In this document: positions 2,136-30,908 of the stretch, piece by piece
Layout: each line of letters starts with the position of its first letter
Position numbering within the stretch: the first letter of the stretch is position 1
Source: Methanobacteriota archaeon
GTDB taxonomy: Archaea; Thermoplasmatota; Poseidoniia; Poseidoniales; Poseidoniaceae
Reading direction: 5' to 3'
DNA length: 37,241 nucleotides
Assembly (NCBI GenBank): GCA_011522915.1
Contig: WTIA01000016.1
Coordinates: 1 to 37,241 of the forward strand
The notes under the pieces: generated by a model
Told to the model about the DNA's origin: nothing
The model's input: only the letters and a program-made list of their open reading frames with translations
The model's database searches: none
Translations under genes and position numbers: made by a program

Positions 2136-2393
2136 ATTATCTCCCCAATTATTGCGACTTTCCACTTTCTATTGTAATGGGCACCACATAACAAAAAGAG
2201 CCGTTTCGTTTATGAGACACTGAACTTGTGTAATAAAAGCCTGTTTAACACTACTAAAATAATGTAATGGAAATAAAACAAAAAATAACATTGCGGTGCA
2301 AAATAACACCAATTCAAAACCCAAACATACTACAATTTCATGGGCAAGACACATGAAGGGGCGACATGTTCAACCACCAGCACGGGTGATTTT

Positions 2394-5300
2394 ATGAAAC
2401 GCATGTCCCCAATTTTACTTGCAATACTCATGGTTACGTCATGCGCTCCAATCGGACTTGTCATGGCATCTAATGAGTCATTAAGCTTCGATACATTTAC
2501 TGGCGGATTCGCCACAGTAGATGTAAAATTACAAGGAGATGTGACAAACAATAGCTCATCAATAGAGGTTCCAAGAAACGTCACATTTGTGGCATCCGGA
2601 TTTGAAGTCAGCATCGATTCTGGAGAAGAGAGTCCCGGGGAAGTTTGGGTTGATATCGGCGAAGATGGGATTTTCGAATGGGAATTCACAGAAACAGGAT
2701 ATGGTGACATCGGCCATCAGAATGAATTCTATGATGGTAACAATTGGTATATCTCTCCAGTAACGGCAGGAAACTCATCAACTCCGGGTTATCTATTGCC
2801 TTCTGCTGCCACAATTCAAACCTCGAATTTAGATGTTGCATTCTCACCAGAATCTGGTGGAGGCTTTTTCGCTATCGGTACTCATCAGGATGTAATCGAG
2901 ACTGACATTGACAATGACAGTAATCCAGAACCAATGTTTTTGTCTGATATTCATTCAAACAACTCTACGTTCATCGTTTATGCTGATTGGGACGTAAACA
3001 CTGGGATTTCAATATCTGCACAAATTCAGACATGTGATAATGCAACTTCAATACAGGTTGGAGACTTGAATGGAGATGGCGATGAAGATATTATCGCATT
3101 TTCAGATACATCAGGAAACGCATGCATCCACTTAGCAAATGGCACATCTTTTGACCCTGTACAGAATGCTTCGGTTGCGGCTGGCTTGTCGAGCGCGAAA
3201 GTTGGAGATATTAATGCGGATGGTAGTGATGAAATTATCACGGTAACGTCTGGCGGAACTCTATCGTATTTCAGTTGGAATAACACAACATCAGGGCTCT
3301 CTTCTGCAGTATCATCGCTTGTCAATGGTAATGGCACGATTGGCATGCCTGCTTATTTGATTTCACTACACGTAGGTGATTTCTTTTCGAATGGAACAGA
3401 ATCCGCTCTAGTTATGGATAATACCGGCCACTGGACGTTATGGAACACAGTATCGGGAGCATGGGCAGGGCCAATTACATCGTTTGATGATATTTCAAGA
3501 GATGAGATACTGACGGATTTGGATGGCGATGGAGATATTGACATCGTGGGTAGTAACGATCAAGGATATGCATTCAGAATAAACGATGGCTCTGGTTGGG
3601 ATGTGAACTTAACTCAAAACCAAATATCCATGATTAACTCAACAATTGCTGATTTTGACAACGACGGAGATTTGGATTTGATGACTCCAGTCCCTGGTTT
3701 TTCAGATGGAACAGCATCAACGTTAGAGGGGAATATTTCTCTTCGTGAGATAAATTCCTCTGCTATATCTTCCCCTTCGATGATAGTTTTGGAACCATGG
3801 TCGATACCAACATCGATAATCACCATGGACATGGATGGTGATGGTGTTGTTGAACACATAGTATCCGCTGGTGAGAATTCAAAAGGCGTGTTTATCGGAG
3901 GATGGCACAGCATTGAGCTCGATGCCGACGGCGACGGCAACCCAGAAATGAGTAGAACTGGGTATGCTGGCGATTCAAGCAATGGCCTTGATCCATTGGT
4001 AATGACCGATGATGCAGACGGAATCAGAGACGACTTATTGCAAATTATCACTTCACTTCCAACCAGTATAGATGGCTATGGTATATCGATGATTAATTTT
4101 TCAATGAACGTTAAAGCATCAGGCAATGGAGAATTTAATTATTCAGAACTTGATATTGGGTATGATTGTAATTTCTTAGTCGACATAAACCCTCACCTTA
4201 TAGGCAATCTCACTAACTCGCTAAATCAACAAATGACAGGCGGTATTGGCAACTTTACTATCGATATTCCGGTAAACTCAACTAAGGCTGGAAATATTTC
4301 TTTGACTAATTTCTACGCTGTAACCGTACCAGGTGCGCCGAATCTAGCAATACCACTAACTCCGGTACTTTCCCTTGTTACTGCAACCCCTGATATGGTG
4401 GAGTTCAAGTGGAATGATACTATTGATTTTGGATTAGATTTTATTGAATTCGAAATATTCAGATTAGAATCTGCAAGTGAATCTGTTGACTTAATGAACG
4501 TATACAATTGGTCGTTCTTCAATGAGACAATTGACTCAAATGTTACTGTAGGTTCTACATATTGGTATCTAGTACGGTCAACGCATCAATTCGGAATAGC
4601 ATCAAACCTGTCCGAGCCTTTACAGGTTACAGTTCCTTATCCATCGCCACCTTCAGCGATTAATGGTCTCAGGTTGAACGATGTATCCTCTGACCAAGGT
4701 GGCGTCCTTGAACTAAGTTGGAACCATTCAGAGGAGGAGTTTACGGAATATGAAATATATTTGGAAAACTCAACCTTCAACAGTATAGCCGGCCTCACAG
4801 CATTCGGCAATGTATCCTCTTCTGAAAACTCTACATTATTGTCGGGGTTAGTAGACGGACAGGAATATTGGGCTGCAGTCGTTGCCGTAGACCAATATGG
4901 AAATAAGACCGAGAATGTAATTTCTGTTGGACCAACATATCCGAGAAATGATGAACCAAACAATGTCAATTTGGAATTGACAGTATCTACCCAAACCTCT
5001 CTGTCATCTCCGTTTAGTCTAGAAATAACAGCGGAAATTGATGGAGTTCAGGTAACTCCACCAGGAGACATTGTAATCACAATGGTAACATCGTCAGGAA
5101 CATATCCTATCGCCACAAGTTGGGATTCGATACTTCTTTCAAATTTCTCAGAATTGGTTTCATTCGCTGCAGAAATTAGCGGCGATGTAACTTTCTATGC
5201 AAATTACAGTGGCGATTCTGGAGATGAACAGAACAGGCCGCTAGCATCAGCAACTACCACAGCAACTACATTTGTTACAGTTGCAGCAGACCTCTCATCT

Positions 5301-6536
5301 CCTGAGGATTTCTACGAACTTGACTGGGAGAATGAAACAAGCGTTAGGGTTGATTTGAATGCAATAAATCCTGTTCAACAAGACTTGTTGAACGGAACTG
5401 CTTACACATGGGTTGCTTTCAATTCAACCACAGGAAATCAGAATTCAGGCAATGGTGTTATCGATAACGGCTTCGATCAATTCATTGTTTCGTTCAATGA
5501 ATCAGGCGTGCTATTCATCAATTTGACTAGCCCGTCTTGGGTAAACGCAGGAACAAATTCGCTAGAAATACAGCTTGTTCCATACGGCAGTACGGTCGAG
5601 GAGAATAACACCGATGGTAATGAAACAGACAATACTCCTTGGTCTCCAGATACTATGCTGGATGTCACTATTGACTGTGGTAGTGTTGTAATAGATCCTT
5701 CAACAGACCAAGAATTAGATTGTACTATTACAAATCCGAATAATTACTCGGTCGATATTTCATTAGAAGCCGACGGCTGGTCTCAATGGTCGGATTACAT
5801 TTTATTCGAACCAAAAGCAGGCCAGGGAGATTTTGTCCTTACAGAATTTGAAAGCAAGAATTTGGAAATACGCGTTGACATTGTCCAAGACCTAGAGGCG
5901 AGTGGCTTGTTAACGGGCCTGATCCAAATCGATTTGAGACAGGGTCCAACAAATTACACCAGCGTTGGTGACAAGCCGCAAACATTCGAAATCACGTGGA
6001 ACTTGATTGAAGAAGAAATCACAATAGATCCGAATCCAGAAGAGAACAATACCAATCAAACAACCAACACAAAAGATGAATCCTCATCTGATAATACGAT
6101 GTTGATCCTTGGTGGAGTTGGAGGAGTTGCGGTCATCGGGCTAGCGGTTTTCATCGTCTTGCGAATGCGAAATAGTGATTTTGAGGATTGGGACGAAGAC
6201 GATTTGGACCTAGAGCCAGAGGTAGAAGCTCAGACTCGCGCATCCAAGCCACTACCAGTGGGGGTTGCTTTGGATGAATTCGAAGACAAAACAATTGTTG
6301 ACGAAACGCCGGATAGGCCAGATGTAATCAATGAATTCGAAGAGGATTACGAGGAGTATTCAGAAGATACCGTCGCCGAATCTACAGAAGACGAATATTC
6401 AGAGTACGACGAATCTAGCGAAGAAGATACTGGAATTACTGTTGATGAACACGGAACAGAATGGTATGAGGATGAAGTCGGAGTTTGGTGGTTCAGAGAA
6501 CCTGGCCAGGACGATTGGGCTGAGTTTACAGAGTAG
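2394..6536 (+). CDS. Large secreted/surface-anchored protein with FG-GAP/VCBS-type repeats, FN3-like domains, C-terminal TM and acidic cytoplasmic tail
   Basis: Start MKRMSPILLAILMV (signal peptide) preceded by GGGTGAT; Ca-binding-type repeats DLNGDGDEDII, DINADGSDEII, DLDGDGDIDIV, DFDNDGDLDLM; FN3-like VLELSWNHSEEEFTEYEIYL; TM LILGGVGGVAVIGLAVFIVL; many NxS/T sequons. Confidence 0.88.
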   Translation: MKRMSPILLAILMVTSCAPIGLVMASNESLSFDTFTGGFATVDVKLQGDVTNNSSSIEVPRNVTFVASGFEVSIDSGEESPGEVWVDIGEDGIFEWEFTETGYGDIGHQNEFYDGNNWYISPVTAGNSSTPGYLLPSAATIQTSNLDVAFSPESGGGFFAIGTHQDVIETDIDNDSNPEPMFLSDIHSNNSTFIVYADWDVNTGISISAQIQTCDNATSIQVGDLNGDGDEDIIAFSDTSGNACIHLANGTSFDPVQNASVAAGLSSAKVGDINADGSDEIITVTSGGTLSYFSWNNTTSGLSSAVSSLVNGNGTIGMPAYLISLHVGDFFSNGTESALVMDNTGHWTLWNTVSGAWAGPITSFDDISRDEILTDLDGDGDIDIVGSNDQGYAFRINDGSGWDVNLTQNQISMINSTIADFDNDGDLDLMTPVPGFSDGTASTLEGNISLREINSSAISSPSMIVLEPWSIPTSIITMDMDGDGVVEHIVSAGENSKGVFIGGWHSIELDADGDGNPEMSRTGYAGDSSNGLDPLVMTDDADGIRDDLLQIITSLPTSIDGYGISMINFSMNVKASGNGEFNYSELDIGYDCNFLVDINPHLIGNLTNSLNQQMTGGIGNFTIDIPVNSTKAGNISLTNFYAVTVPGAPNLAIPLTPVLSLVTATPDMVEFKWNDTIDFGLDFIEFEIFRLESASESVDLMNVYNWSFFNETIDSNVTVGSTYWYLVRSTHQFGIASNLSEPLQVTVPYPSPPSAINGLRLNDVSSDQGGVLELSWNHSEEEFTEYEIYLENSTFNSIAGLTAFGNVSSSENSTLLSGLVDGQEYWAAVVAVDQYGNKTENVISVGPTYPRNDEPNNVNLELTVSTQTSLSSPFSLEITAEIDGVQVTPPGDIVITMVTSSGTYPIATSWDSILLSNFSELVSFAAEISGDVTFYANYSGDSGDEQNRPLASATTTATTFVTVAADLSSPEDFYELDWENETSVRVDLNAINPVQQDLLNGTAYTWVAFNSTTGNQNSGNGVIDNGFDQFIVSFNESGVLFINLTSPSWVNAGTNSLEIQLVPYGSTVEENNTDGNETDNTPWSPDTMLDVTIDCGSVVIDPSTDQELDCTITNPNNYSVDISLEADGWSQWSDYILFEPKAGQGDFVLTEFESKNLEIRVDIVQDLEASGLLTGLIQIDLRQGPTNYTSVGDKPQTFEITWNLIEEEITIDPNPEENNTNQTTNTKDESSSDNTMLILGGVGGVAVIGLAVFIVLRMRNSDFEDWDEDDLDLEPEVEAQTRASKPLPVGVALDEFEDKTIVDETPDRPDVINEFEEDYEEYSEDTVAESTEDEYSEYDESSEEDTGITVDEHGTEWYEDEVGVWWFREPGQDDWAEFTE

Positions 6537-17731: not shown

Positions 17732-18772
17732 ATGCGCGAGTACCCATCTGAGCGTGTTGATGTACGCAGCGATACTGTGACGCAGCCTACGGCTGCTATG
17801 CGCTCTGTGATGGAGGCCGCAAAAGTCGGAGACGATGTGTTAGGAGATGACCCTACCGTAATCGAATTACAAAATCGCCTTGCAAAGATGTTCGGAAAAG
17901 AGGCTGCACTTTTTGTTGCAAGCGGTACGATGGCAAATGCGATTGCGCTGCGCACACACACTTCGCCTGGTGATGAAATCGTCTGTGACAAGACAGCCCA
18001 CATTTACAAATACGAAGGTGGAGGTTATGCGGCACTTTGCGGGGCATCGATTTCTCTAGTAGATGGCGAAGGGGGAATAATGACTGCAGAGCAGGTGAAA
18101 AAGGCGATTAGAAAAGCCGAAGGTTCAGGTTCTCATTACCCAGATGGTACATTGGTTTGTGTTGAAAACACTTCCAATTTAGGAGGAGGAGCGTGTTACA
18201 GCCAAGAGGCGCTTGATGAGATTGCTGCAGTAGCAAAAGAGAATGGTTGTGCAACTCACATTGATGGGGCAAGAATTTTCAACGCTTCAATCGCAACTGG
18301 AGTAGATGTTGCGAGGATGTGCAGGGATTATGACTCGGTCTCCATCTGCCTATCAAAGGGCTTGGGAGCACCAGTTGGCTCAGTTTTAGTCGGCAGTCGA
18401 GAATTTATCAACAAAGCACACAGATGGCGAAAGATGTTTGGTGGTGGCTGGAGACAAGCGGGCGTTCTTGCAGCTGCTGGCTTACATGCTATCGACCATC
18501 ACATAGAGCGTTTGGCAGAAGATCATTCCCGAGCTAGAGTTGTCGCAGAGGCAATAGATGCAATGGAGAATTTTAGCGTTGATTTAGACGCAGTCCAATC
18601 AAATCTCGTCTATGTAAACTGCAAAATTCCCGCTTCTGAGGTTGTAGTCTCACTAGCAGAGCATGGGATCGACATGTTCGATTTACCTTACAATAGAGTA
18701 AGAGTTGCCATTCATCTTCACATAACAGATGAAGATGTGGAGCGGATTATTGCTGCTTTTGCTGCACAATAG
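17732..18772 (+). CDS. ltaE: Low-specificity L-threonine aldolase (PLP-dependent)
   Basis: VDVRSDTVTQPTAAMRSVMEAAKVGDDVLGDDPTV, HIDGARIFNASIATG, SICLSKGLGAPVGSVLVGS, RRKMFGGGWRQAGVLAAAG-type signature. Confidence 0.93.
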   Translation: MREYPSERVDVRSDTVTQPTAAMRSVMEAAKVGDDVLGDDPTVIELQNRLAKMFGKEAALFVASGTMANAIALRTHTSPGDEIVCDKTAHIYKYEGGGYAALCGASISLVDGEGGIMTAEQVKKAIRKAEGSGSHYPDGTLVCVENTSNLGGGACYSQEALDEIAAVAKENGCATHIDGARIFNASIATGVDVARMCRDYDSVSICLSKGLGAPVGSVLVGSREFINKAHRWRKMFGGGWRQAGVLAAAGLHAIDHHIERLAEDHSRARVVAEAIDAMENFSVDLDAVQSNLVYVNCKIPASEVVVSLAEHGIDMFDLPYNRVRVAIHLHITDEDVERIIAAFAAQ

Positions 18773-19649
18773 CCGCTGCAAACATCGTGATTCCAATTAC
18801 TGCAACGAGTCCAAGGCTTGGAAGACTATCCTCATCATCTTCTTTGCTGACCTGTGGCTCTTCCTCTGGTTCCTCTGCTTGCGGTAGAATGACCTCGTGA
18901 ATTAGGTGGACCTGCAAGTCATCGCCGTCGTAGGCTGTTGGCATTGTGACTTCCATTGTACCGTATGTTGAATTACCTAAGTCGATGATGCCTCTCACGC
19001 TTTTGTTGTAATATTCTTCTTCGTTACCGCCATCTGGGAAGTATGCTAGTTTTTCAACTATCCAAAGTGAGGATTTAATCTCACTATCATCTGGGAAATT
19101 AGCCATGTCTACGACTAGATTCCAGGTTACAATGGGATTTGAATTGTTACTGACAACCCAACCAAGTGTTGACGAACCTACTCCCAAATTCAGTGAATTT
19201 GCTAGGTTTAGATTATAGTCATCCTGTAGAGAATCACCATCTGGCACACTTCCAATTTGTCTAATTGTGCCGTTGAAGATAGCGGTTGGAGGTAGTCTTT
19301 GGTCATACCTTTCAATCCACCGATCATCACCTTCTTGTGAACCTAGAGGGTCTTCATTTTCTCCAATAAATCTGTGGAAATGATAAGTTTGCATTTGATG
19401 TTGAGACTCAATATCTTTCAATGCATTCTCGACCGCTATACAATTTGTGCACCACGTGGCGGTATAGTCTTCCACAATAGCGGGTAATTCTGAAAGGTTG
19501 TTACTAGAATTTCCAGAAACGTTTGCATCAACGTAAACTCCACCAAAGACCGGACCAACATTTTCTAATTTCTCAGGACTCCCTGCATGAGAGGTTGGCA
19601 TTGTTGATAGGCAAAGTGCCAATACAATCAGTGCAATTCGTGCTCGCAT
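18747..19649 (-). CDS. Secreted, membrane-anchored thioredoxin-fold protein
   Basis: Start MRARIALIVLALCLSTMPTSHAG (signal peptide); TATWCTNCIAVENALKDI (CxxC); C-terminal TM LGLVAVIGITMFAAAIV. Confidence 0.75.
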   Translation of the reverse strand: MRARIALIVLALCLSTMPTSHAGSPEKLENVGPVFGGVYVDANVSGNSSNNLSELPAIVEDYTATWCTNCIAVENALKDIESQHQMQTYHFHRFIGENEDPLGSQEGDDRWIERYDQRLPPTAIFNGTIRQIGSVPDGDSLQDDYNLNLANSLNLGVGSSTLGWVVSNNSNPIVTWNLVVDMANFPDDSEIKSSLWIVEKLAYFPDGGNEEEYYNKSVRGIIDLGNSTYGTMEVTMPTAYDGDDLQVHLIHEVILPQAEEPEEEPQVSKEDDEDSLPSLGLVAVIGITMFAAAIVQQKQQ

Positions 19650-19751
19650 AAACTTCCCAAACTTTACCTCATTTTCAATGGTTTGGCCTTTAGTTGGAAG
19701 CGTGGGTTCAAGAACCACCGTCACCGAGTTGGTCCGTTGGCGGACCTGACA

Positions 19752-22700
19752 ATGATGACCGAGGAACCTGTAGCACTGACTGACCTGTCTATGGAGGCAG
19801 TTCCTGCTGGTCGTGCAATTCCTGAGTGGTTGATGTCCTCGCTATTAGATGGCAGGCGTTTGATGATAATTCATCCATCTGAAGAATGCAGAAAACAAAC
19901 GATAGAATCTCTACATAGATTAGGTGAAGGTAAAGCGATTGACACATCTCATCATCTAACCATAAATCGCTTGATAGGAATATTGCATCTTGACCTAAGA
20001 CTTCCAGTTATGCTCCAAGACGACGGAGTATTATTCGAACAAACTCACCAAGCACTATCGCACGAAGCCTCTGAGTATGGCTTCCCAAATCTCTTATCGA
20101 ATCCAAAACACAAATGGTCCCGCTCCAGAAGTCGCAGATTGCTGGCTTTGTATCGTGAATTAACTAGCCTAAGAAGACCATGGGATTGGGAGGAAGACCC
20201 TGGCGGTAAGGCTTGCGATAAGGTACTGAAGGCAATGGAATTGAAATTGCAAGCAACCCATCCATTGCGATTGAAAAGGAAGGTTTGGGAAGAGTTGAGA
20301 ACTACAGAAAATGAACCGTTCACGATTTCTGACATAGAGGGCATCGTTGTCCTTGACCATCCTCCGGGAATTAGTGAAATTGAAATTGCAATATTGAAAG
20401 AAATTTCCAGGTTTAAAGCGGTTCACCAACTCGTTAACCCTGGTTCTCACAGGTTAGGTTACCATGGAGAATATATTGAGGACATCGCTCCAATTAGAAA
20501 GAAATCCGATTTGCCAGAATGGGTCCCGACTCACGAGGTTTGGGCGCCAAATTCTCAACCCGGGTGGCAATCATCAATTGGAATAGAAAAAGGTTGCAAA
20601 ATTAATCGGGTTTTTTGTGAATCAAATGATCACACCCCTCTGGCTCTAGCAAATATTCTAAGTCAAATTGAAGGAGACATTGTCATTGTAAGCGGTGATT
20701 CTGAAAGCCTTACTGCACAGATGAAACCTCATCTGAAATCGATGGGACATCACACCCTAGAGCCGAGAAGGAAAGTAATCGAAACAAGTAGCGTTGCAAG
20801 GATCCTTTCAATCGCTAGAATCCCTCGAGGAGAAGAAGCATGGTCACTTAACCGACTTACTCAATTATGGACCCAAATTGAACTACCGATGACTTGGGAC
20901 ATTTTGGATTTAGAGCATCCAATTCACCCGGATTGGAAGCCAAGATTGCATCCTGAGGTACTAGCTGAACTGGCCAGAGGCTTTCACCTACTGGGAGGTA
21001 ATGGAGCTCTTAGAAGATGGCAGGCAACATTAGAGAATGCAAGTCCAAGAGCCGGAGTAGATCCTAAGAAGCGAGAACAAAAATTAGAGGAGTGTCAATG
21101 GTGGCTTTCATGTATAATCAATTGGATGTATCCAATTCTACCGGCAACAGACAAGAAAGAGGTCCGTAAGGAGTTAATCGGATGTTCAACAGGAAAAGAA
21201 CTACCATTGCCGTCTTCCCCAAAAGATGTAGTTGGTTGGATTAACTCTTGCCTCGACCAAATTGATTGGCTAAAACTGACATCTCGTGATGAATTATTCA
21301 CAACCTCTATACCGGGATTGCAACAATTTGCTGAATCGATAAACAAACTAAGAAAAGAGAAAATCGAACTAAATTCTGAAGACTTTCTAGAAGTACTAGA
21401 GATGGTTTCATCCTACGATGAAATTAACGTTAAATCATCTCAGGATAAGGGAATAAAGATTCTATCTCCGTCGCAATCCTACGGTCTTGAAGCCGACTAT
21501 CTCATTCTTTGTGGAATAGATTCTGAAACGTGGTCCATGAAGACCAAGCAAGTGCCTTGGCTAGACGAAGCAAGTAGGATGAAAATAGGGCTACACAGAC
21601 CGGACGAACCTCTTAGAATTGCCCGCCACCAACTTAGGCATTTCTTCAATTGCACTCCAAATGTACTGATAATCGATTCCAGTATCGAAGAAGGAATAGA
21701 ACTTGCAGGGCCATTAGATGAGTGGTTCAGTGAAATAGCTGATGGTGAAGCGTTACCATCTTTGAATAAGGAACCATCCTATCTAGATCCGAACTCTTGG
21801 TCGACAACTTCAGAAAACCGGTCTTGGAGGTGGGAAACTAAACCTGAAGGAAACAGATTGATTTACAGAGTTTCATCTATGGAATCGACGGAGTCTGGAA
21901 TAAAGACTCATAGAAGCGGAAGTTTACACAGGGATATAATCCAAAGAGCGGGCATAGCATCGATAGAATCTCGCAAACCTCTTGTTCCTCCACTGAATTC
22001 TGATGCTATTTTAGTCGCTGCTGAGACAGAGGTCCTTGACGATCAGTTTTCCCGAAGAAGAACAGGGGACGACTTACAAATTGGTCAGGTTCATCCATTT
22101 TCAAGCGCACAGCAAAGGATACAATCTTCAGACATAAAATTGGTACCGACCAAAACCAAACCGGCCAATGCACGAGAATCAGAAATATGGCCACATTTGG
22201 GCATTATGTCGAAAAAAGGACTCGGGATTCCAATTGACCCTAGACCAATTCAACCACCGTCAACAACCCTAGAAGAATTAGACCGTATCACTGGAAGGAG
22301 TATAATGCAACTTAATCTTCCGAAAGTTTGGTCACAAGGGAGGCTTCAATCTTGGTTAGAATGTCCAAGAAGAGCGTGGTTTGAGAAGCACATGTATTTT
22401 GGTGATGAGGATGGATTGGAGGAAGACTTGGCTGCTGTAACTAGGGGTAATATTGTTCACGTTGTGGAAGAGGCAATCCTCAGGGCGCATGGGATTGGTG
22501 AAGAATCAGTTCAATCAAACCCGCAGCCACTTGTTTATGGGAAAGTAGGAAGTGTCGAAAATGCTTGGCAGATTGCACTGCAAACACTTGCAGAAAGTGC
22601 AACTTGGATGAAGAGAGAGGACGGCATTTCCGCTCATCGATGTCGTGACTTAATCGGAGTTTCACCTAACCGCTGGAATGAATGGTTAGAGGAAGGTAGT

Positions 22701-23426
22701 CCTATATCGTTGGGTGGAAGAATTGGAAGAATGATTGAAAGTGATTTTGCATTAACCAACGTCGCTCCAATCGCAACGGAATGGGAACTTAACAGTCCAG
22801 ATGGTAAACATGTTCGACTAGGTTTACCCGACACATCAGATTCATTCTTAATTCGGGGAAGAATAGACAGGGTAGACCAGTTAGTGAATTTTGATTATGA
22901 CTTTTCCGATGTTGAGGAAGTTATTCCACTGGATTTTGATTTAGATAATCCTCCTAAATCAAAGCGATTGATAATTCTGAGAGACATCAAGTCAATTGAC
23001 GGTGCAAAAGATAATGGCAATAATGAAAGACATTTGAAGGGTATATTCCATGAATTACAATTGGCACTCTATGCTAGGGCTTGGGAGATTGCAAACCCCG
23101 GAGATAGAGTAATCGGGGTTGGTGCAACACAGGTAGGTAACCAAACCCACCATTTCATCGAAATCGACCCCGAGTTTTACGATAGTTGTCTGGAGTTAAA
23201 CGTTGGAATCATTGGCAATGATACCCATGGCCATTACAGACTACCAGGAGATTTCAAGGATGAATCCTCTAATCCATTTAGAGCATGGATGAGAGAAAGA
23301 ATTACCACTGCAATTCGAGTTATCAAAAATGCTGAAGCAGGTAACATTCATCCTGAGCCATCTAACATGTGTAAATACTGCCCGATCAAAGACGCATGTC
23401 CAAGCGCCAAAAGAGGTGGTTGGTGA
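19752..23426 (+). CDS. AddB-like subunit: degenerate UvrD-like domain plus PD-(D/E)XK nuclease with putative Fe-S cluster
   Basis: C-terminus: WLECPRRAWFEKH (Cys1), RGNIVHVVEEAIL, GRIDRVD..., LIILRDIKSI, HELQLALYARAWE, CKYCPIKDAC (CX2CX5C). No GxGKT Walker A seen near the N-terminus (LMIIHPSEECRKQTIES). Confidence 0.82.
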   Translation: MMTEEPVALTDLSMEAVPAGRAIPEWLMSSLLDGRRLMIIHPSEECRKQTIESLHRLGEGKAIDTSHHLTINRLIGILHLDLRLPVMLQDDGVLFEQTHQALSHEASEYGFPNLLSNPKHKWSRSRSRRLLALYRELTSLRRPWDWEEDPGGKACDKVLKAMELKLQATHPLRLKRKVWEELRTTENEPFTISDIEGIVVLDHPPGISEIEIAILKEISRFKAVHQLVNPGSHRLGYHGEYIEDIAPIRKKSDLPEWVPTHEVWAPNSQPGWQSSIGIEKGCKINRVFCESNDHTPLALANILSQIEGDIVIVSGDSESLTAQMKPHLKSMGHHTLEPRRKVIETSSVARILSIARIPRGEEAWSLNRLTQLWTQIELPMTWDILDLEHPIHPDWKPRLHPEVLAELARGFHLLGGNGALRRWQATLENASPRAGVDPKKREQKLEECQWWLSCIINWMYPILPATDKKEVRKELIGCSTGKELPLPSSPKDVVGWINSCLDQIDWLKLTSRDELFTTSIPGLQQFAESINKLRKEKIELNSEDFLEVLEMVSSYDEINVKSSQDKGIKILSPSQSYGLEADYLILCGIDSETWSMKTKQVPWLDEASRMKIGLHRPDEPLRIARHQLRHFFNCTPNVLIIDSSIEEGIELAGPLDEWFSEIADGEALPSLNKEPSYLDPNSWSTTSENRSWRWETKPEGNRLIYRVSSMESTESGIKTHRSGSLHRDIIQRAGIASIESRKPLVPPLNSDAILVAAETEVLDDQFSRRRTGDDLQIGQVHPFSSAQQRIQSSDIKLVPTKTKPANARESEIWPHLGIMSKKGLGIPIDPRPIQPPSTTLEELDRITGRSIMQLNLPKVWSQGRLQSWLECPRRAWFEKHMYFGDEDGLEEDLAAVTRGNIVHVVEEAILRAHGIGEESVQSNPQPLVYGKVGSVENAWQIALQTLAESATWMKREDGISAHRCRDLIGVSPNRWNEWLEEGSPISLGGRIGRMIESDFALTNVAPIATEWELNSPDGKHVRLGLPDTSDSFLIRGRIDRVDQLVNFDYDFSDVEEVIPLDFDLDNPPKSKRLIILRDIKSIDGAKDNGNNERHLKGIFHELQLALYARAWEIANPGDRVIGVGATQVGNQTHHFIEIDPEFYDSCLELNVGIIGNDTHGHYRLPGDFKDESSNPFRAWMRERITTAIRVIKNAEAGNIHPEPSNMCKYCPIKDACPSAKRGGW

Positions 23427-26400
23427 TGGTGGAATTTAGAGTATCACAGATTCTCGGTCTGGACATTAACCGGCACATAGCGATTGATGCGGGCGCTGGT
23501 ACTGGAAAGACTACGGTTATGGCTAGTAGGTACCTACAGCATTTGTTATCTGGAGATCAACGTGCAACTAGGATATTACCTTCCGCACCAAGAATCCCGT
23601 TACAAGGAATGGGCGCAATCAGGGTTCCATCAAGAGAAAGGACATCACTCGAGGAATGGCCCGGATTACTTCCTACAGAGACAGTTGCAATTACATTCAC
23701 TCGCAAAGCAGCAGCTGAATTGAAGGGCCGAATAAGGAGGTTGATTGCTTCTCTGAAGGCACAACCGGATAAGGCTGGTGGAACGCATGATCCAAGATTG
23801 AGAAATCAAGGTGATGTAGCGATGTTGTTATCCCTTATCGATGACGCTCCAATTTCTACAATAGATTCATTTTTGTCATCGATAGTTTCACCTTGGATGG
23901 GTCTTGTTAGCGAAAATCCAACCAGTGAACAATTAGATGAAGACGCTGCCGTATTCCTTCGCGATGAAGCAATTAGAACAGCGTGGAGGCTGCAAAGGGG
24001 CATAGATGGTAAGGAGGCGGGAATGTCGGGAGACATCGAATCTTTCCTAGAATCTAGAGATAGATTGTCTGTCCTATTAGGGGGACAAGATTCCTCAGCA
24101 AGAGTAGTCAAAGGAATGTTGAAACGCTCCCTATTTGTTGAAGAGGCATCCCGCAGATTGCGTTTAGATGATACAGGAAACCTACAAGCAGAATCTCTGA
24201 ACCAACTATTTTTGTCTCCAATTTGCGAATTCATCGATAATTGGTATCTAGACTTCAGAGCGCACGTTTGCAATTGGGTGGATTCTTGGCTAGAAAGCGG
24301 GGCCGCTTTCATCATAGGTGCTGACGAACCAATTGGAATGACTCGCTACAGGTATGTCCAATACCTGTGCACTTTAGATGTGAATGAGCAAATCCAAAAA
24401 CTGCAGTGGATTTGGCTTGTTTCGCATGCTATTGCTACCGCATCAAATCTAGATAAAATCGATTGCAAAGCACTGTATAGAGCTCGACCTCCGAAAGGAA
24501 AAGGCTGGCCAAGCGGTATCATGACGAAGGGGAATTGTCCACTAGCGAATTCTGTAAAAGATATGATTTCCACCAATGCACAAGTACATGCAGACGCAAT
24601 CAGAGATATGCTTCACACACCAAGAGGTTTGTTAATCAGGGTATTAGGTCAATCTTCACATCTGTTGAATCCATTGATTAGCGACCCTCAAGAAGTACCT
24701 GGTCAGACCGCATATCCTCCCAGGCTGGATGTTGCTTTACCACAACTTCCGCCAGCCCCTGAAATGAGACTTACAACAGAATTGGAACTACAAGTAATTC
24801 GAGATTTATTTGTTGTAAATGTAGGGGTTGGCGAAATATTATCGCGATTAAAATCTCAGGAAGGAGTTAGCGACCACGATGACATGCACCGTTTAGCCGA
24901 AGATTTGTTATTGACACGCTGTCCATCTGTATGTAGGAATTGGTATCCTCAATCGGTTGTAGAAGCACTCGATTCTTTAGGCGACAGGCCTTGGCAAGAT
25001 GATCATTTATTCAGAGCAATCAGTGCTAGCCAAGGCAACGAAGATGTTCACAAGGATTTGATGCGCAGGATAACGATTCTACGAGATTTGAGAAGACAAT
25101 ATAGGGCATTTATTATCGATGAATATCAAGATACAAATCCACAACATTTCAGATTGCTGGCAAGACTCTGGGGAAGAAGAAGATTGGATGAAGGAGAACC
25201 AGCACCTCCTGCATCAGAATGGGACCCAACCATTTGTATCGTTGGAGATATGAAGCAGTCAATTTATCGCTTTAGGCAAGCAGAAGTAACGGTCATGCGT
25301 AGAGCCGTTGCAGCAATTCGAGAAATGAACAGAGAAGAATCAGCGATGGAGAATCGTACAGATTCTTTGAGAAGGCCTGATTTTGGAAAAGATCCTCGAG
25401 TTACGAAACCTATGACATTCATGTCAACTACTGATTTGGTTGAGGAGGAAAAAAGAAGAGAATGGGTTCCGTTCTTAGAAGACGATGATGGAAGAAAATT
25501 GGATCTAGATTCAGTAGTCAAGAGAAGGGAAGGGCATATTGAGATGTCAACTAACTACCGAACAATTCCAGAATTGATGAATACAATGAACGTAATGTTC
25601 CAGGACACATTTTCGCAAAGGCATCATTTGCTACCGGGCCCTTGGCATGCAGAGCCTCAGGATTTGAATCCTGGAAGGAAATCGGAAACGATTGCAAAAT
25701 TGGAGTGGGTACTTCCCACAAGAACTGGAAGCGGTTTGCGACCTATGGACATGAATGTTGCAGTTGATCCTTTCCAATTTGATGGATCCGATGATAGAGA
25801 GTTGACAGCAAACTTGCTTGCAAAACGAATTTCATCACTAATCGATGGTAAGTTAGCTCAGGTTTACAGCGCAGAAAAAGGCTCTTGGATCGATGTCAGC
25901 GAATCAAAATTTTACAGGCCTAAGGACATCATGATCTTAGTAGCATCACACGCAAGAGTGCCTTTACTGGTTAAAGCACTGGAAGAACATGGAGTGCCAG
26001 CTATTGCAGGAAAACAAGGCCTGCTCATGTTTAGGCCAGCGATTAAGACATTGATGTCCTTGCTTTGGCTATTGACCTCGCCGCACAATAAGACGGCCGC
26101 ACTAGCAGTTGCTCGTTCTGCCTTGGTCGGAATGAATGATTCAGAAGTCATATCGCACTTCGGAAATAGTCAGGGTAATCAGTTGGAAAATCTGGCCAAG
26201 GCGGCGCCAACTGAAGGAGTAAAATCACTACTTCAAAGGATGAATTACCTTGTTGAAAATGGTAAGGTCAGGGAAGCAATAGATGTGGCCATTGACTATT
26301 CCGACTTACTATACGCATACCCAAGAGAAGGCGACAGGCAAGACATAGAGAACTGGATTTCTCTTTATGACAAGATTGCAGATACAGTTGGTGGAGATGC

Positions 26401-28222
26401 TGCATTAGTTTACAACCGGCTTAGGGAATTGAGTAATTTGGAAAAAGACGGCCCAAAAAGCAGTACTTCAGGAACCGGAGGAGCGGTTCAGATAATGACA
26501 ATTCACGGTTCCAAAGGTCTAGAGGCGCCGGTAGTAGTAGCATACGATATATTCTCAACCGGAACTAAAGACTCATCATTTTCATCATCAGATAATGTAT
26601 TGGTTACCCCAGATATTATTGCTGGAAGAATCCATCCATGGCGCGGAATAAGTAAACCACAAAGTGGCCTTTGGACAATCGCTCATCTATTCGATGACGG
26701 ACAGCAAAGGGCAGAGCGCCGGAGGCAATTCTATGTGGCGTTAACAAGGGCAAAAGATCGCTTAATCATAGCAGGAACCCCAAGCGATGGAGCCTATGTC
26801 GACGAGGACGGGCGTATAACTTTCAAGCGTGGTAAAGGAAGACAAAACATGGGTTACATGTTCCTCGATGGATTAGCATATGCAAGTATTCAGGCAGGCC
26901 ACGAGGGCTGTAGTTGGTCACAGGGTGGGCTTGAACAAGAAGGAAACACCTACACATTGGACCCGGGCATACTCGTAGGGAATTCTTGCTTAGGTCAAAA
27001 TTGTGTAAATGGAATATCTATTTTCCATCACTCTAATTGCTTCGAAGACAATCAAGATGTAGCACTGGTAGAAACTTGGCGTCAGAGGCTAGAATTATCA
27101 AGAAATCCTGCTGAGCAAAAAGAAGACAAAAATTTACGAAAGATTTCGTTTAAACTACCCATGACATCACATGGCCTAGACAGTGCTTGGTCGTGTAAAA
27201 GGCGTCATTGGTTGTCAACAAAGATGAATTGGAATTCAGAAAGATTTGACTTTATTGCTGATGATTTTGAACAAAGCAAATGGCCAAGTTCAGCCGAATT
27301 TGGTTCTTTATTCCACAGATTGCTGGAAATCGGATTGGCAAATCCCGGTTCAGATAATTCAGATTTAGATGCGAAGTGGACAGAATCGCAAAACGATAAT
27401 CTCACAGAATCCAAAACAATAGATGAGGTTATGGCACAATCAACAATTTCAGAACCAGATGTGATAGAAAAGACCAGGCTGCGGTTGCTACACTTAGGAA
27501 AATTGGCAAGACAAGGACCACTTGGAAGATTAGTTCTTGGAGAAACTTTTGATGGGTTTAGCGTTGAAGGATTGAGGACAGAATTGCCATTTTACCTTTC
27601 ACTTAATCATGAACCAAATGAATTGTACAGAAATAATTGGACTCCTAGGGGTGACCAAATTTTATCATACATTGAATCGATTACAGCCACATTTAACGGC
27701 AGAGCGGATTTAGTTTTAGCACTCAAAGACAAGGACGGCCAGGGCTGGCTTCAAGTCGTTGATGCCAAGACTAAGCACTGCCTGTATGGATTCAATCCAC
27801 TCAACCCACTAGAAGGAAATGAATTGCAAATTGTAACCGATATGGAATCTCCTTATCCAATAACTCCTGCTGAAGAGGAGATAATTCGGGAGCATAGATT
27901 GCAATTGACCCTGTATAGCCTTGCACTTGAAATCGCAGAGAATGCTAAACCTGCGAATAAGCAAAGGAAAATTCTACCTCCTGCTATTCAGATTTCTGCT
28001 TCAGGTAGAATGGTTAGGATGCATCAAGAAGAGTTCAAGCAAGCAAAACTGGACCTGATTTCACTCATTGAATGGGCGGGGGAGACCGCTGCTGCAGGAG
28101 ATGGAATTAAGGCACCATCACGATTACCAATTGAGCAAAAATCGACCTGTGAAAAGTGCCCATTCTATGCTGGAACAATCAAACTGTGTGGACCTATTGG
28201 TGAGAAGCTCGGCCCATCATAA
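23426..28222 (+). CDS. AddA/RecB-like UvrD-family helicase-nuclease
   Basis: Walker A AIDAGAGTGKTTV; VAITFTRKAAAELKGRIRRLI; AFIIDEYQDTNPQHFRLL; IVGDMKQSIYRFRQAE; MTIHGSKGLEAPVVV; RRQFYVALTRAKDRLIIAG; nuclease FNGRADLVLA...VVDAKTK...QLTLYSLALE; cysteines SCKRRHW and CEKCPFYAGTIKLC. Start ATG overlaps the upstream stop as ATGA. Confidence 0.9.
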   Translation: MVEFRVSQILGLDINRHIAIDAGAGTGKTTVMASRYLQHLLSGDQRATRILPSAPRIPLQGMGAIRVPSRERTSLEEWPGLLPTETVAITFTRKAAAELKGRIRRLIASLKAQPDKAGGTHDPRLRNQGDVAMLLSLIDDAPISTIDSFLSSIVSPWMGLVSENPTSEQLDEDAAVFLRDEAIRTAWRLQRGIDGKEAGMSGDIESFLESRDRLSVLLGGQDSSARVVKGMLKRSLFVEEASRRLRLDDTGNLQAESLNQLFLSPICEFIDNWYLDFRAHVCNWVDSWLESGAAFIIGADEPIGMTRYRYVQYLCTLDVNEQIQKLQWIWLVSHAIATASNLDKIDCKALYRARPPKGKGWPSGIMTKGNCPLANSVKDMISTNAQVHADAIRDMLHTPRGLLIRVLGQSSHLLNPLISDPQEVPGQTAYPPRLDVALPQLPPAPEMRLTTELELQVIRDLFVVNVGVGEILSRLKSQEGVSDHDDMHRLAEDLLLTRCPSVCRNWYPQSVVEALDSLGDRPWQDDHLFRAISASQGNEDVHKDLMRRITILRDLRRQYRAFIIDEYQDTNPQHFRLLARLWGRRRLDEGEPAPPASEWDPTICIVGDMKQSIYRFRQAEVTVMRRAVAAIREMNREESAMENRTDSLRRPDFGKDPRVTKPMTFMSTTDLVEEEKRREWVPFLEDDDGRKLDLDSVVKRREGHIEMSTNYRTIPELMNTMNVMFQDTFSQRHHLLPGPWHAEPQDLNPGRKSETIAKLEWVLPTRTGSGLRPMDMNVAVDPFQFDGSDDRELTANLLAKRISSLIDGKLAQVYSAEKGSWIDVSESKFYRPKDIMILVASHARVPLLVKALEEHGVPAIAGKQGLLMFRPAIKTLMSLLWLLTSPHNKTAALAVARSALVGMNDSEVISHFGNSQGNQLENLAKAAPTEGVKSLLQRMNYLVENGKVREAIDVAIDYSDLLYAYPREGDRQDIENWISLYDKIADTVGGDAALVYNRLRELSNLEKDGPKSSTSGTGGAVQIMTIHGSKGLEAPVVVAYDIFSTGTKDSSFSSSDNVLVTPDIIAGRIHPWRGISKPQSGLWTIAHLFDDGQQRAERRRQFYVALTRAKDRLIIAGTPSDGAYVDEDGRITFKRGKGRQNMGYMFLDGLAYASIQAGHEGCSWSQGGLEQEGNTYTLDPGILVGNSCLGQNCVNGISIFHHSNCFEDNQDVALVETWRQRLELSRNPAEQKEDKNLRKISFKLPMTSHGLDSAWSCKRRHWLSTKMNWNSERFDFIADDFEQSKWPSSAEFGSLFHRLLEIGLANPGSDNSDLDAKWTESQNDNLTESKTIDEVMAQSTISEPDVIEKTRLRLLHLGKLARQGPLGRLVLGETFDGFSVEGLRTELPFYLSLNHEPNELYRNNWTPRGDQILSYIESITATFNGRADLVLALKDKDGQGWLQVVDAKTKHCLYGFNPLNPLEGNELQIVTDMESPYPITPAEEEIIREHRLQLTLYSLALEIAENAKPANKQRKILPPAIQISASGRMVRMHQEEFKQAKLDLISLIEWAGETAAAGDGIKAPSRLPIEQKSTCEKCPFYAGTIKLCGPIGEKLGPS

Positions 28223-28814
28223 CCAAGGTTCCAGGAAAGTTTTCTTTCCCTGCAACTTGGTGAATTTCGACGTCTGTAAAACCAGCATTAATCATTGCAT
28301 TACTCCATTCTTCGATTGATAGAGTAGTCATGTGAACGCCCACGTGTTCGGGCCAAGTCAATGATTCTTCATGCTCTAGGTAGTGGTCGACACCTGCGAC
28401 TAGAACTCCTTCATTTTCTAGCCACTCATCGTGAATAATCGAAATCATGCTTGCTGGGTCATCAAGATAGTACAGGAATTCCATTGTGTGTACCAGATCA
28501 AATCTTCTCTTAGGGCTCCAGTCTGGAAGTAAGCCCTGAGAGTATTTGTGATTCGAATCCTTGGTTCTCGCTTTGGTTATCATTTCGTTTGAGCCATCTA
28601 CGCCTTCGCTATGGCTTGCTCCTAATTCGGTTAACATCCTTGTCACCCAGCCGTTACCACATCCCAAATCAATAGCAGAAAAGTTGGTTTTTACCTTTGG
28701 TAGTGCTAACTCAAGCATAGCTTTTACAGAGGCAGCATGTCCTCTTTCCATACCCTCGTCTTTGCCGATTAGAGCCCACTGTGAGAAAACGTCAACAGCA
28801 GATTTTTTCTCCAT
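28194..28814 (-). CDS. Class I SAM-dependent methyltransferase
   Basis: AIDLGCGNGWVTRMLTELGASHSEGVDGSNEMITKA; RRFDLVHTMEFLYYLDDP. Start placed at MEKKSAVDVFSQWA (28814); ORF opens upstream to 29015 over the divergent gene. Confidence 0.85.
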   Translation of the reverse strand: MEKKSAVDVFSQWALIGKDEGMERGHAASVKAMLELALPKVKTNFSAIDLGCGNGWVTRMLTELGASHSEGVDGSNEMITKARTKDSNHKYSQGLLPDWSPKRRFDLVHTMEFLYYLDDPASMISIIHDEWLENEGVLVAGVDHYLEHEESLTWPEHVGVHMTTLSIEEWSNAMINAGFTDVEIHQVAGKENFPGTLVMMGRASHQ

Positions 28815-28894
28815 GTTTTGTCGCAATGCAAGGCCCTCAATAAACCGTGTGTACCCAGCGAAAGTAACATGTTCTTGGTACGAATGGACCATAC

Positions 28895-29857
28895 ATGCAA
28901 ATTGTATCACAGACAATTGATGAGGTGCTATATCCCGCCATAGAGGCCCATACAACTGGGTTTTTGCAAGTTTCAGACTTGCATACGATAGCCTGGGAGC
29001 GGAGTGGTAATCCAAACGGACTCCCTGTGATTGTTATTCATGGTGGCCCTGGTGGAGGCAGCCAGCCATCATACCGCAGATATTTCGACCCAGAAAAATT
29101 CGATATCATCCAGTTTGACCAGAGAGGATGTGGACAATCCACTCCTTATGCCGAATTAGAAGATAACAATACTCACGCATCGGTTTCAGATTTAGAAATG
29201 CTAAGAGAACATCTGGATATTGAACAGTGGCACGTATTTGGCGGGTCATGGGGTTCAACACTTTCACTAATCTATGCCCAAAACCATCCTTCGCGAGCAC
29301 TCAGTTTAACCCTAAGAGGGATTTTCATGTGCAGGAAAAGTGAACTTCATTGGTTCTACCAAGATGGTGCAAGTCACGTGTTCCCAGACGCCTTCGAACC
29401 ATATCGTGACCATATCCCACTTTCGGAACAAGGAGATTTAATCAAAGCATATTATTCTAGATTAATCAGTGAAAATGTGGAGGTTAGAAGGGCCGCTGCT
29501 AGGGAATGGACGCGTTGGGAAATGGCAACAAGCAGACTATTTCCAGACCCAGAATATCTCGATAAAGCCGAGGATCTGGATTTCGCTGTCGCCTTTGCAA
29601 GGATTGAATGTCATTATTTCATAAATGCGATATTTGTAGAAGAGGCATACATTTTGAACCATGTATCAACGATTCAAAATATTCCAACAACCATAGTCCA
29701 AGGTCGTTATGATATGGTCTGTCCTGCTCGCAGTGCTTGGGAATTACACAAGGCGTTACCAAATAGCAAATTGGTCATGGTAGCAGATGCAGGTCATTCG
29801 ATGGGTGAGGTTAGTATTGCCAGAGAATTAGTGAAAGCGACCGACGCTATTCAATAA
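28895..29857 (+). CDS. pip: Proline iminopeptidase (alpha/beta hydrolase, S33)
   Basis: VIVIHGGPGGGSQPSYRRYFDPEKFDIIQFDQRGCGQSTPY; VFGGSWGSTLSLIYAQNHP; LTLRGIFMCRKSELHWFYQDGASHVFPD; IVQGRYDMVCP. Confidence 0.94.
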   Translation: MQIVSQTIDEVLYPAIEAHTTGFLQVSDLHTIAWERSGNPNGLPVIVIHGGPGGGSQPSYRRYFDPEKFDIIQFDQRGCGQSTPYAELEDNNTHASVSDLEMLREHLDIEQWHVFGGSWGSTLSLIYAQNHPSRALSLTLRGIFMCRKSELHWFYQDGASHVFPDAFEPYRDHIPLSEQGDLIKAYYSRLISENVEVRRAAAREWTRWEMATSRLFPDPEYLDKAEDLDFAVAFARIECHYFINAIFVEEAYILNHVSTIQNIPTTIVQGRYDMVCPARSAWELHKALPNSKLVMVADAGHSMGEVSIARELVKATDAIQ

Positions 29858-29941: not shown

Positions 29942-29951
29942 GGTGAGAGAA

Positions 29952-30908
29952 ATGTCCGATGTTGGAACCATCACTCCAGAAACCCAAATCAAAGAACTCA
30001 CAGAGAAACTTGAGGAAGAAACCGAGCGTTTACTCAAGTTGTATGCGGCTTATGAGCAGCAAGAAGCCGAATTGAGAGATACAAAGGCTGAAGTCGAAGT
30101 TCTCGAGAAAGAAATCGTAGAGCGTGAAATAGAAAAAGAGAGCCTTGAGGCACTTTTGACAGAAAAAGATGCAAGAATTAGGGACCTCGAAATGAAAGCT
30201 AGTAAATCCAGTAAGCAGGTTGAACATCTTGAACCTGAATTACAGAAGATGGAAGAAAAATTCACTCGTGAAAAGGACCGCCTAGGAAAAGTATTCTCAA
30301 TTGCAGAGGAGTTGGACAACGATTTGCGATTAGCCGTTGTTGAATTAAACACCAGAGACGAGTGGTACATGGCTCACATGTCGCTATTCGAAGACTTGAA
30401 CAAGGCAATTAAGCGCAGATATGAGATGATTGAAGCAGCTGCAGAAGCAGAAAGGCAATCACAGCACATGGGAAGAGCAATCACCGAAAGAATGGAGGAA
30501 ATGGTCGAAGCACGTGCTGCCGAAATGACTCTAGAAGAAGCATCTGAAATAGAGTCTGTCGAAACAGAAAACACTCCTGAAACAACCGAAGAATCTCCCG
30601 CTACAGAAGAGTCTGAAGATGACGAATGGAATTGGTCTGAGCAGGTCCTAACAGGTGTAATGCAGAAAAACGGAATAACAGACCGTGATGCATTTATTGA
30701 ATTTGCAAAGTCATACGATATGGATGGCAACAAGTACCTCAAAGGCTCAGAACTTGGCGCAGCAGCAGCAGATTTTGTCGCTAAGGACGCCCCGGCTGAA
30801 GAAGCACCAGCTGGTGAAACACCAGCTGAAGAAGAGCAAGAAGAATCATCATCAGATGATGACAAAGAGCCAGAAGTAGTCTGGAGAAACTCCGGCGACT
30901 CTCAGTAG
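29952..30908 (+). CDS. Coiled-coil protein with C-terminal EF-hand-like motif
   Basis: Long heptad-rich N-terminal half (EKLEEETERLLKLYAAYEQQEAELRDTKAEVEVLEKEIVEREIEKE...); acidic linker; DMDGNKYLKGSEL EF-like loop; SD AGGTGA upstream. Confidence 0.75.
   Translation: MSDVGTITPETQIKELTEKLEEETERLLKLYAAYEQQEAELRDTKAEVEVLEKEIVEREIEKESLEALLTEKDARIRDLEMKASKSSKQVEHLEPELQKMEEKFTREKDRLGKVFSIAEELDNDLRLAVVELNTRDEWYMAHMSLFEDLNKAIKRRYEMIEAAAEAERQSQHMGRAITERMEEMVEARAAEMTLEEASEIESVETENTPETTEESPATEESEDDEWNWSEQVLTGVMQKNGITDRDAFIEFAKSYDMDGNKYLKGSELGAAAADFVAKDAPAEEAPAGETPAEEEQEESSSDDDKEPEVVWRNSGDSQ

Follow-up and report, generated by a model that had tools for sequence, protein, structure and literature searches.

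The archaeal order Poseidoniales probably resects its DNA double-strand breaks chiefly with a divergent, ancestral AddAB machine, which would have replaced both HerA-NurA and Mre11-Rad50. This view starts from a window of 37,241 nucleotides, the whole of contig 44 of genome G000 (family Poseidoniaceae, order Poseidoniales, Marine Group II; 77.6% complete). Positions 19752-28222 of the window are an AddAB-type addB-addA gene pair, as the original prediction had stated for this archaeon, and the motifs, the fold of AddB and the tree of AddA agree on this identity.

HerA-NurA is regarded as the standard archaeal resection pair and, to our knowledge, Mre11-Rad50 is usually regarded as near universal. 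In Sulfolobus, HerA-NurA is essential (PMC7776575).

Results

The addB-addA locus

Two long open reading frames running in the same direction fill the region (Table 1). The addB gene starts with the ATG at 19752 and ends with a TGA at 23426, its frame being open already from a TTG at 19683, while addA runs from the ATG at 23426 to a stop at 28222, with another in-frame ATG at 23396. An ATGA overlap had been described at 23426; the actual junction is TGATG, in which the addB stop (23424-23426) and the addA start have one base in common. Translational coupling of adjacent addB and addA, a hallmark of AddAB, is seen in this junction and in the same gene order in relatives.

The pair is surrounded by housekeeping genes, among them MCM, Trm1, a gene for a GatE-type amidotransferase and genes of metabolism, and what PADLOC returns is limited to generic matches to UvrD helicases and Cas4; together these observations speak against an anti-phage island. 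No RecD-like gene was found among the scanned neighbours of addBA. Elsewhere in the window (2340-6536) lies the gene of a probable large surface protein, 1398 aa long, in which FG-GAP repeats and a fibronectin type III domain are recognised.

Table 1 Coordinates of the addB-addA pair, its nuclease domains and its neighbours in the window.
Feature	Position	Strand	Description
beta-eliminating lyase	17732..18772	+	Flanking gene, context only; Pfam 1.3e-104; adjoins the pair in both families
thioredoxin-like gene	18747-19724		Upstream neighbour of addBA
addB, AddB-type subunit, 1224 aa	19752..23426	+	Inactive UvrD-like motor fold (predicted), C-terminal PD-(D/E)XK nuclease
AddB nuclease domain	22320..23414 (bounds approximate)	+	Four iron-sulfur-type cysteines and catalytic motifs
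addA, AddA-type helicase-nuclease, 1598 aa	23426..28222	+	UvrD_N, UvrD_C, PDDEXK_1
AddA nuclease domain	27185..28210 (bounds approximate)	+	Iron-sulfur-type cysteines and catalytic residues
methyltransferase gene	28194-29015		Downstream neighbour of addBA
gene without Pfam match	29943..30908	+	Flanking gene, context only; order-wide conserved neighbourhood

Motor and nuclease of AddA are intact

In AddA, the N- and C-terminal UvrD helicase domains (Pfam UvrD_N, E 8.7e-31; UvrD_C, 9e-20) are followed by a PD-(D/E)XK nuclease (PDDEXK_1, 5.1e-10). The best NCBIfam models are Gram-positive AddA (1e-39) and RecB (9e-39) for AddA and alpha-type AddB (3e-5) for AddB. Both proteins score far under the equivalog cut-offs (135.8 against 707.65 bits for AddA, 22.4 against 486.5 bits for AddB), which are naming thresholds and stand for no mechanistic feature; the proteins are therefore divergent, and names alone do not settle their membership.

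The intact motor and nuclease claimed for AddA are borne out by 48 Poseidoniales sequences. Helicase motifs I, II and VI show no variation at their catalytic residues, so that the complete set of SF1A motifs expected of an AddA is present, and the nuclease residues H, D, D, K, Q and Y are kept in 48/48 (one residue unread). The loss of catalytic nuclease residues that the original prediction had allowed for is thus seen in none of these AddA, nor in any of 44 AddB.

The nuclease of AddA carries iron-sulfur-type cysteines in SCKRRHW and CEKCPFYAGTIKLC, together with the catalytic H, D, DAK and QLTLY. This four-cysteine set is complete in 37 of the 48 sequences, ten others being without the fourth cysteine alone and one AddA being truncated; the first three are present in every complete sequence. 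In our survey of AddA, some bacterial proteins and two from other Thermoplasmatota have such cysteines as well, and those of the Bacillus type do not, indicating that the Poseidoniales AddA is a variant and not a first. An AlphaFold model of this nuclease (pLDDT 83.7) has AdnA, Dna2, the Cas4-like ACE1 and AddB as its best PDB matches, with modest TM-scores. At 1598 aa, AddA is also about 340 residues longer than Bacillus-type AddA, of which a Bacillaceae example has 1259 aa, and much of the added length falls between helicase motifs I and II.

AddB is a motor-degenerate nuclease

Pfam finds only PDDEXK_1 (9.8e-13) in AddB and no helicase domain. A PDB sequence search with AddB gave chance-level matches only, and its identity was therefore settled by fold search. 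The five top PDB matches of the AlphaFold model, which covers residues 30-1224 at moderate confidence (pLDDT 74.7), are all AddB chains (4ceh_B, 4cei_B, 3u44_B, 4cej_B and 3u4q_B; E 6.6e-18 to 4.8e-15), ranking ahead of AdnA, UvrD and RecC. A Walker A motif is present in 0/18 full-length Poseidoniales orthologues; several Firmicutes AddB do keep it. The fold match and the missing Walker A point to an SF1-like fold that lacks an active motor, as expected of AddB in AddAB, and they agree with the motor-degenerate partner originally proposed.

The first cysteine of the AddB nuclease lies in LECPRRAW, followed by the catalytic motifs RGNIVH, RGRID, RDIK and QLALY and by the C-terminal CKYCPIKDAC. 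The residues H, D, D, K, Q and Y are kept in 44/44 Poseidoniales (one D to E), and the four cysteines are invariant in the same 44. Judged by sequence, the pair thus appears to have what is characteristic of AddAB: nuclease residues in both subunits and putative iron-sulfur cysteines in AddB. The iron-sulfur cluster of AddAB is required for binding broken DNA ends, as reported in PMC4176176 (Yeeles et al. 2009).

addBA is ancestral to Poseidoniales

We sampled two families of the order, Poseidoniaceae (f1, MGIIa) and Thalassarchaeaceae (f2, MGIIb), and a third family label, f3, from another order of the same class. One class has been proposed to contain both MGII and MGIII (PMC6461757), and f3 is presumably Marine Group III. 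AddA is found in 257/293 genomes of the class, namely in 257/272 of f1 and f2 and in 0/21 of f3; the 15 Poseidoniales genomes without it are incomplete MAGs (63-90%). The named organisms with a related AddA are Euryarchaeota archaeon SAT1390 (57% identity), Ca. Poseidoniaceae and Poseidonia sp. (40-43%) and Ca. Thalassarchaeum (35%), and the family names given to f1 and f2 rest on these matches. After Poseidoniales, the next matches are bacterial AddA with less than 30% identity, short segments excepted.

At every sampled Poseidoniales locus with enough flank, addB lies immediately upstream of addA, indicating that the pairing of these homologous genes is not due to chance. In both families addBA is bordered by the genes for the beta-eliminating lyase and the thioredoxin-like protein and by the gene at 29943, the orthologue of the last standing beside the pair in most loci (56-78% identity, minimum 42%). 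Order-wide presence and common synteny therefore place addBA in the ancestor of Poseidoniales, with vertical inheritance since. They also rule out a recent horizontal acquisition and, together with the single-contig genome G002, the contamination of one MAG.

The dN of addA and addB is about 2-5 times that of housekeeping neighbours in most close pairs aligned. Two neighbours, the thioredoxin-like gene and the methyltransferase gene, roughly keep pace with AddAB in divergence, and the other neighbours are slow. Synonymous sites are mostly saturated, so these figures are relative protein rates only and give no estimate of positive selection. For the fast-diverging addBA genes pN is well under pS; addA and addB evolve rapidly under purifying selection, with no evidence of an arms race.

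In a motor-domain tree, Poseidoniales AddA form one clade (support 100) on a long stem. This clade falls within an AddA/RecB clade (support 99) which leaves out UvrD, a two-motor pair and UvrD-Cas4-like fusions. Its closest neighbours in the tree, weakly supported (86), are AddA encoded on plasmids of Picosynechococcus and Thermus. The AU test weakly rejects one clade for all archaeal AddA (p 0.028) and does not reject one that joins Poseidoniales to other Thermoplasmatota (p 0.134); the trees come from quick searches and carry long branches and composition warnings. The comparison with bacterial proteins suggested at the outset thus places AddA in its class, but yields no donor. An early acquisition of AddAB from bacteria is likely, the tree giving neither donor nor direction. 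Of the acquisition originally implied, this early event is still likely, whereas a recent or single-genome import does not, since the pair is order-wide and syntenic.

The usual archaeal resection genes go undetected in nearly all Poseidoniales

The original prediction asked for NurA-HerA and Mre11-Rad50 in the same genome, and the outcome is stronger than expected, as both are undetectable in nearly all Poseidoniales. A profile search finds NurA in 0/106 Poseidoniales, and HerA, sought with the protein of the sister lineage, in 0/88. Mre11 gives one clear match in 88 Poseidoniales (G104) and one weak match in a 531-aa frame; Rad50, again sought with the sister lineage's protein, gives the G104 match and one weak match in 88. 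RadA is present in 87/88. In G002, a single contig of 2.06 Mb, AddA and RadA are present and Mre11, Rad50, HerA and NurA were not found.

Most of the MAGs behind these absences are incomplete, and the searches used profiles and proteins as queries, which a nuclease of high divergence could escape. As a control, the Mre11 model detected 13/14 genomes, including all four archaeal ones, and the NurA model 6-7/14, a lower sensitivity for a divergent family. In a draw of 243 genomes across the phylum, Mre11 is matched in 170, none of them Poseidoniales. Nearly all other sampled Thermoplasmatota retain Mre11, and so do the other AddAB-bearing families of that draw.

The sister lineage within the class (genus g23) shows the reverse set: it has no AddA, but both Mre11-Rad50 and HerA-NurA. 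Mre11 adjoins Rad50 in G001, G013 and G031, and NurA adjoins HerA in G001. In another genus, g24 of f3 (G003, G005, G007, G009 and others), neither AddAB nor HerA-NurA was found and RadA is kept. Most of g24 seem to be without Mre11-Rad50 too, one Rad50 fragment apart; weak matches to the Mre11 model in frames of about 480-530 aa are possibly the small subunit of DNA polymerase D. The loss of Mre11-Rad50 thus does not seem to require AddAB.

The only real Mre11-Rad50-like pair among the 88 Poseidoniales lies on contig 9 of G104 (L199), a genome of the Poseidoniaceae in which AddA is also present. It adjoins an apparent topoisomerase VI B gene and may be a remnant, a regain or a binning error.

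Matches to DUF87 of about 800-900 aa in Poseidoniaceae were considered as HerA and rejected: in the piece read, their ATPase domain is close to the N-terminus, and the true HerA of the sister lineage retrieves none of them. They belong to a conserved DUF87/TrwB-like ATPase (L184, L185 and G000:C75:23762), rare in Thalassarchaeaceae, which is not a canonical HerA.

AddAB-type pairs in other archaea

By gene order, AddAB-type pairs were found in 16 further Thermoplasmatota genomes of several families, and also on haloarchaeal plasmids. The general reliance of archaea on HerA-NurA and Mre11-Rad50, from which the original prediction argued, therefore needs qualification, and "archaea lack AddAB" is too strong a statement. 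These pairs (L081-L096, L100 and L200-L203) share the two-gene layout of Poseidoniales, but differ in tree position, and several are without iron-sulfur cysteines in both subunits. Neither subunit was seen to carry such cysteines in the f11 and f37 pairs (L083-L093) or in L081 and L085 (f30), and both subunits carry them in L089 and L092 (f32, f35).

NurA is found in 0/16 of the AddAB-bearing other Thermoplasmatota, whereas 64 of the 205 genomes which that draw holds from outside the class have it (p 0.003 by Fisher's test, relatedness ignored). Mre11 is kept by most of the 16. Some of the haloarchaeal plasmid pairs (L200-L203) lie near restriction-type or transposase genes and could be mobile or linked to defence. 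Two further loci of other Thermoplasmatota, L097 and L098, encode single-protein UvrD-nuclease fusions with iron-sulfur-type cysteines. They resemble the UvrD-Cas4 family, which has been described (PMC5704561).

Discussion

The genes, their motifs, folds and synteny, and the presence or absence of partners are observed directly. Activities, polarity and the hand-over to RadA are taken from the AddAB family, and by this analogy an AddA/AddB heterodimer would bind a double-strand end, a step for which the iron-sulfur cluster of AddB is required in AddAB. The single motor of AddA would then travel 3' to 5', unwinding the duplex, while the nucleases of AddA and AddB would each cut, so covering both strands; the remaining 3' single-stranded tail would be loaded with the archaeal RadA. 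As for a Chi-like motif, 20 stretches of G002, each of 20 kb and 400 kb in all, gave no outstanding 6-8-mer; in this genome GC skew is too weak for strand orientation and a short Bacillus-like Chi is probably invisible. We lean, by a modest degree, towards a hybrid of bacterial and archaeal recombination that has operated since the order's origin: a pathway without Mre11-Rad50 and HerA-NurA, in which RadA, a recombinase of archaeal/eukaryal type, is fed by a bacterial-type AddAB with two iron-sulfur "iron staple" nucleases.

It is unlikely that AddAB serves mainly to degrade viral DNA, with repair being secondary or left to unrelated nucleases. Bacterial RecBCD and AddAB are reported in PMC4176176 to degrade foreign DNA too, the two proteins outpace most housekeeping neighbours, and haloarchaeal plasmid pairs lie near restriction-type genes. 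However, in Poseidoniales the pair is a near-universal, single, syntenic copy among housekeeping genes instead of part of a patchy defence island, the methyltransferase and thioredoxin-like neighbours diverge equally fast, and the PADLOC matches are generic. Thus, of the alternative pathway originally suggested, break processing is plausible, whereas the anti-phage role finds no positive support in these neighbours. There is also only a small chance that AddAB is accessory to a highly divergent, undetected Mre11-Rad50 or HerA-NurA. AddAB and Mre11 do occur together in other Thermoplasmatota, and NurA is a divergent family that our model recovers in under half or just half of the controls; on the other hand, the Mre11 model detects nearly all controls, the archaeal ones included, all four proteins are missing although two were sought with the sister lineage's own sequences, and the single-contig G002 is without any of them.

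That the pair should be AdnAB with its two motors, a UvrD-Cas4 fusion or RecBCD is highly improbable. The iron-sulfur-type cysteines in both nucleases and an AddA nuclease model closest to AdnA would fit such a reading, but AddB has none of the motor motifs of the two-motor pair at L129, and the tree groups AddA with AddA/RecB, separately from the sequences of two-motor and UvrD-Cas4-like type. AdnAB is defined by an active motor in both subunits, and AddB has neither a helicase domain match nor Walker A. RecBCD combines RecD with a nuclease-dead RecC; here no third subunit or RecD-like neighbour was found, AddB keeps its nuclease residues, and by fold AddB ranks first.

AddAB as the main resection machine of Poseidoniales is the reading that we prefer. 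AddAB itself is well known, and AddAB-type pairs occur in archaea outside this order as well. Two things seem new: AddAB as apparently the only recognised resection system throughout an archaeal order, and the long AddA in a pair with two potential iron-sulfur nucleases. Our searches of the open-access literature turned up no paper on AddAB or on missing Mre11-Rad50 in Marine Group II, and prior mention elsewhere is possible. An abundant archaeal order of marine surface waters with RadA and a vertically inherited AddAB, in which Mre11-Rad50 and HerA-NurA are undetectable in almost every genome, would amount to an experiment in replacement done by nature. With it one could ask whether AddAB is able to pass DNA to a RadA/Rad51-type recombinase instead of RecA, and whether there is Chi control in archaea.

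Comparison with known systems

HerA-NurA with Mre11-Rad50 is unrelated to AddAB in its proteins and goes undetected in nearly all Poseidoniales, but the job proposed for AddAB is the same, end resection feeding RadA. AdnAB (6ppr, 9np6) has motors in both subunits and the Poseidoniales pair only one; both have two nucleases, and the AddA nuclease fold is nearest to AdnA. The AddAB-like pairs of Picosynechococcus pAQ6 (L208) and Thermus pTHEOS01 (L205) are plasmid-borne and their proteins much shorter, although they hold the nearest AddA in the tree (weak support, 86) and the pAQ6 pair has iron-sulfur-type cysteines in both subunits. Compared with Bacillus-type AddAB (AddA model TIGR02785; structures 3u4q, 4ceh, 4cej), the Poseidoniales AddA is longer and its nuclease also has cysteines, and AddB is without the Walker A that several Firmicutes AddB retain. 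The two systems nevertheless share the overlapping addB-addA order, one active SF1A motor in AddA, a nuclease in both subunits, a motor-dead AddB and iron-sulfur-type cysteines in the AddB nuclease.
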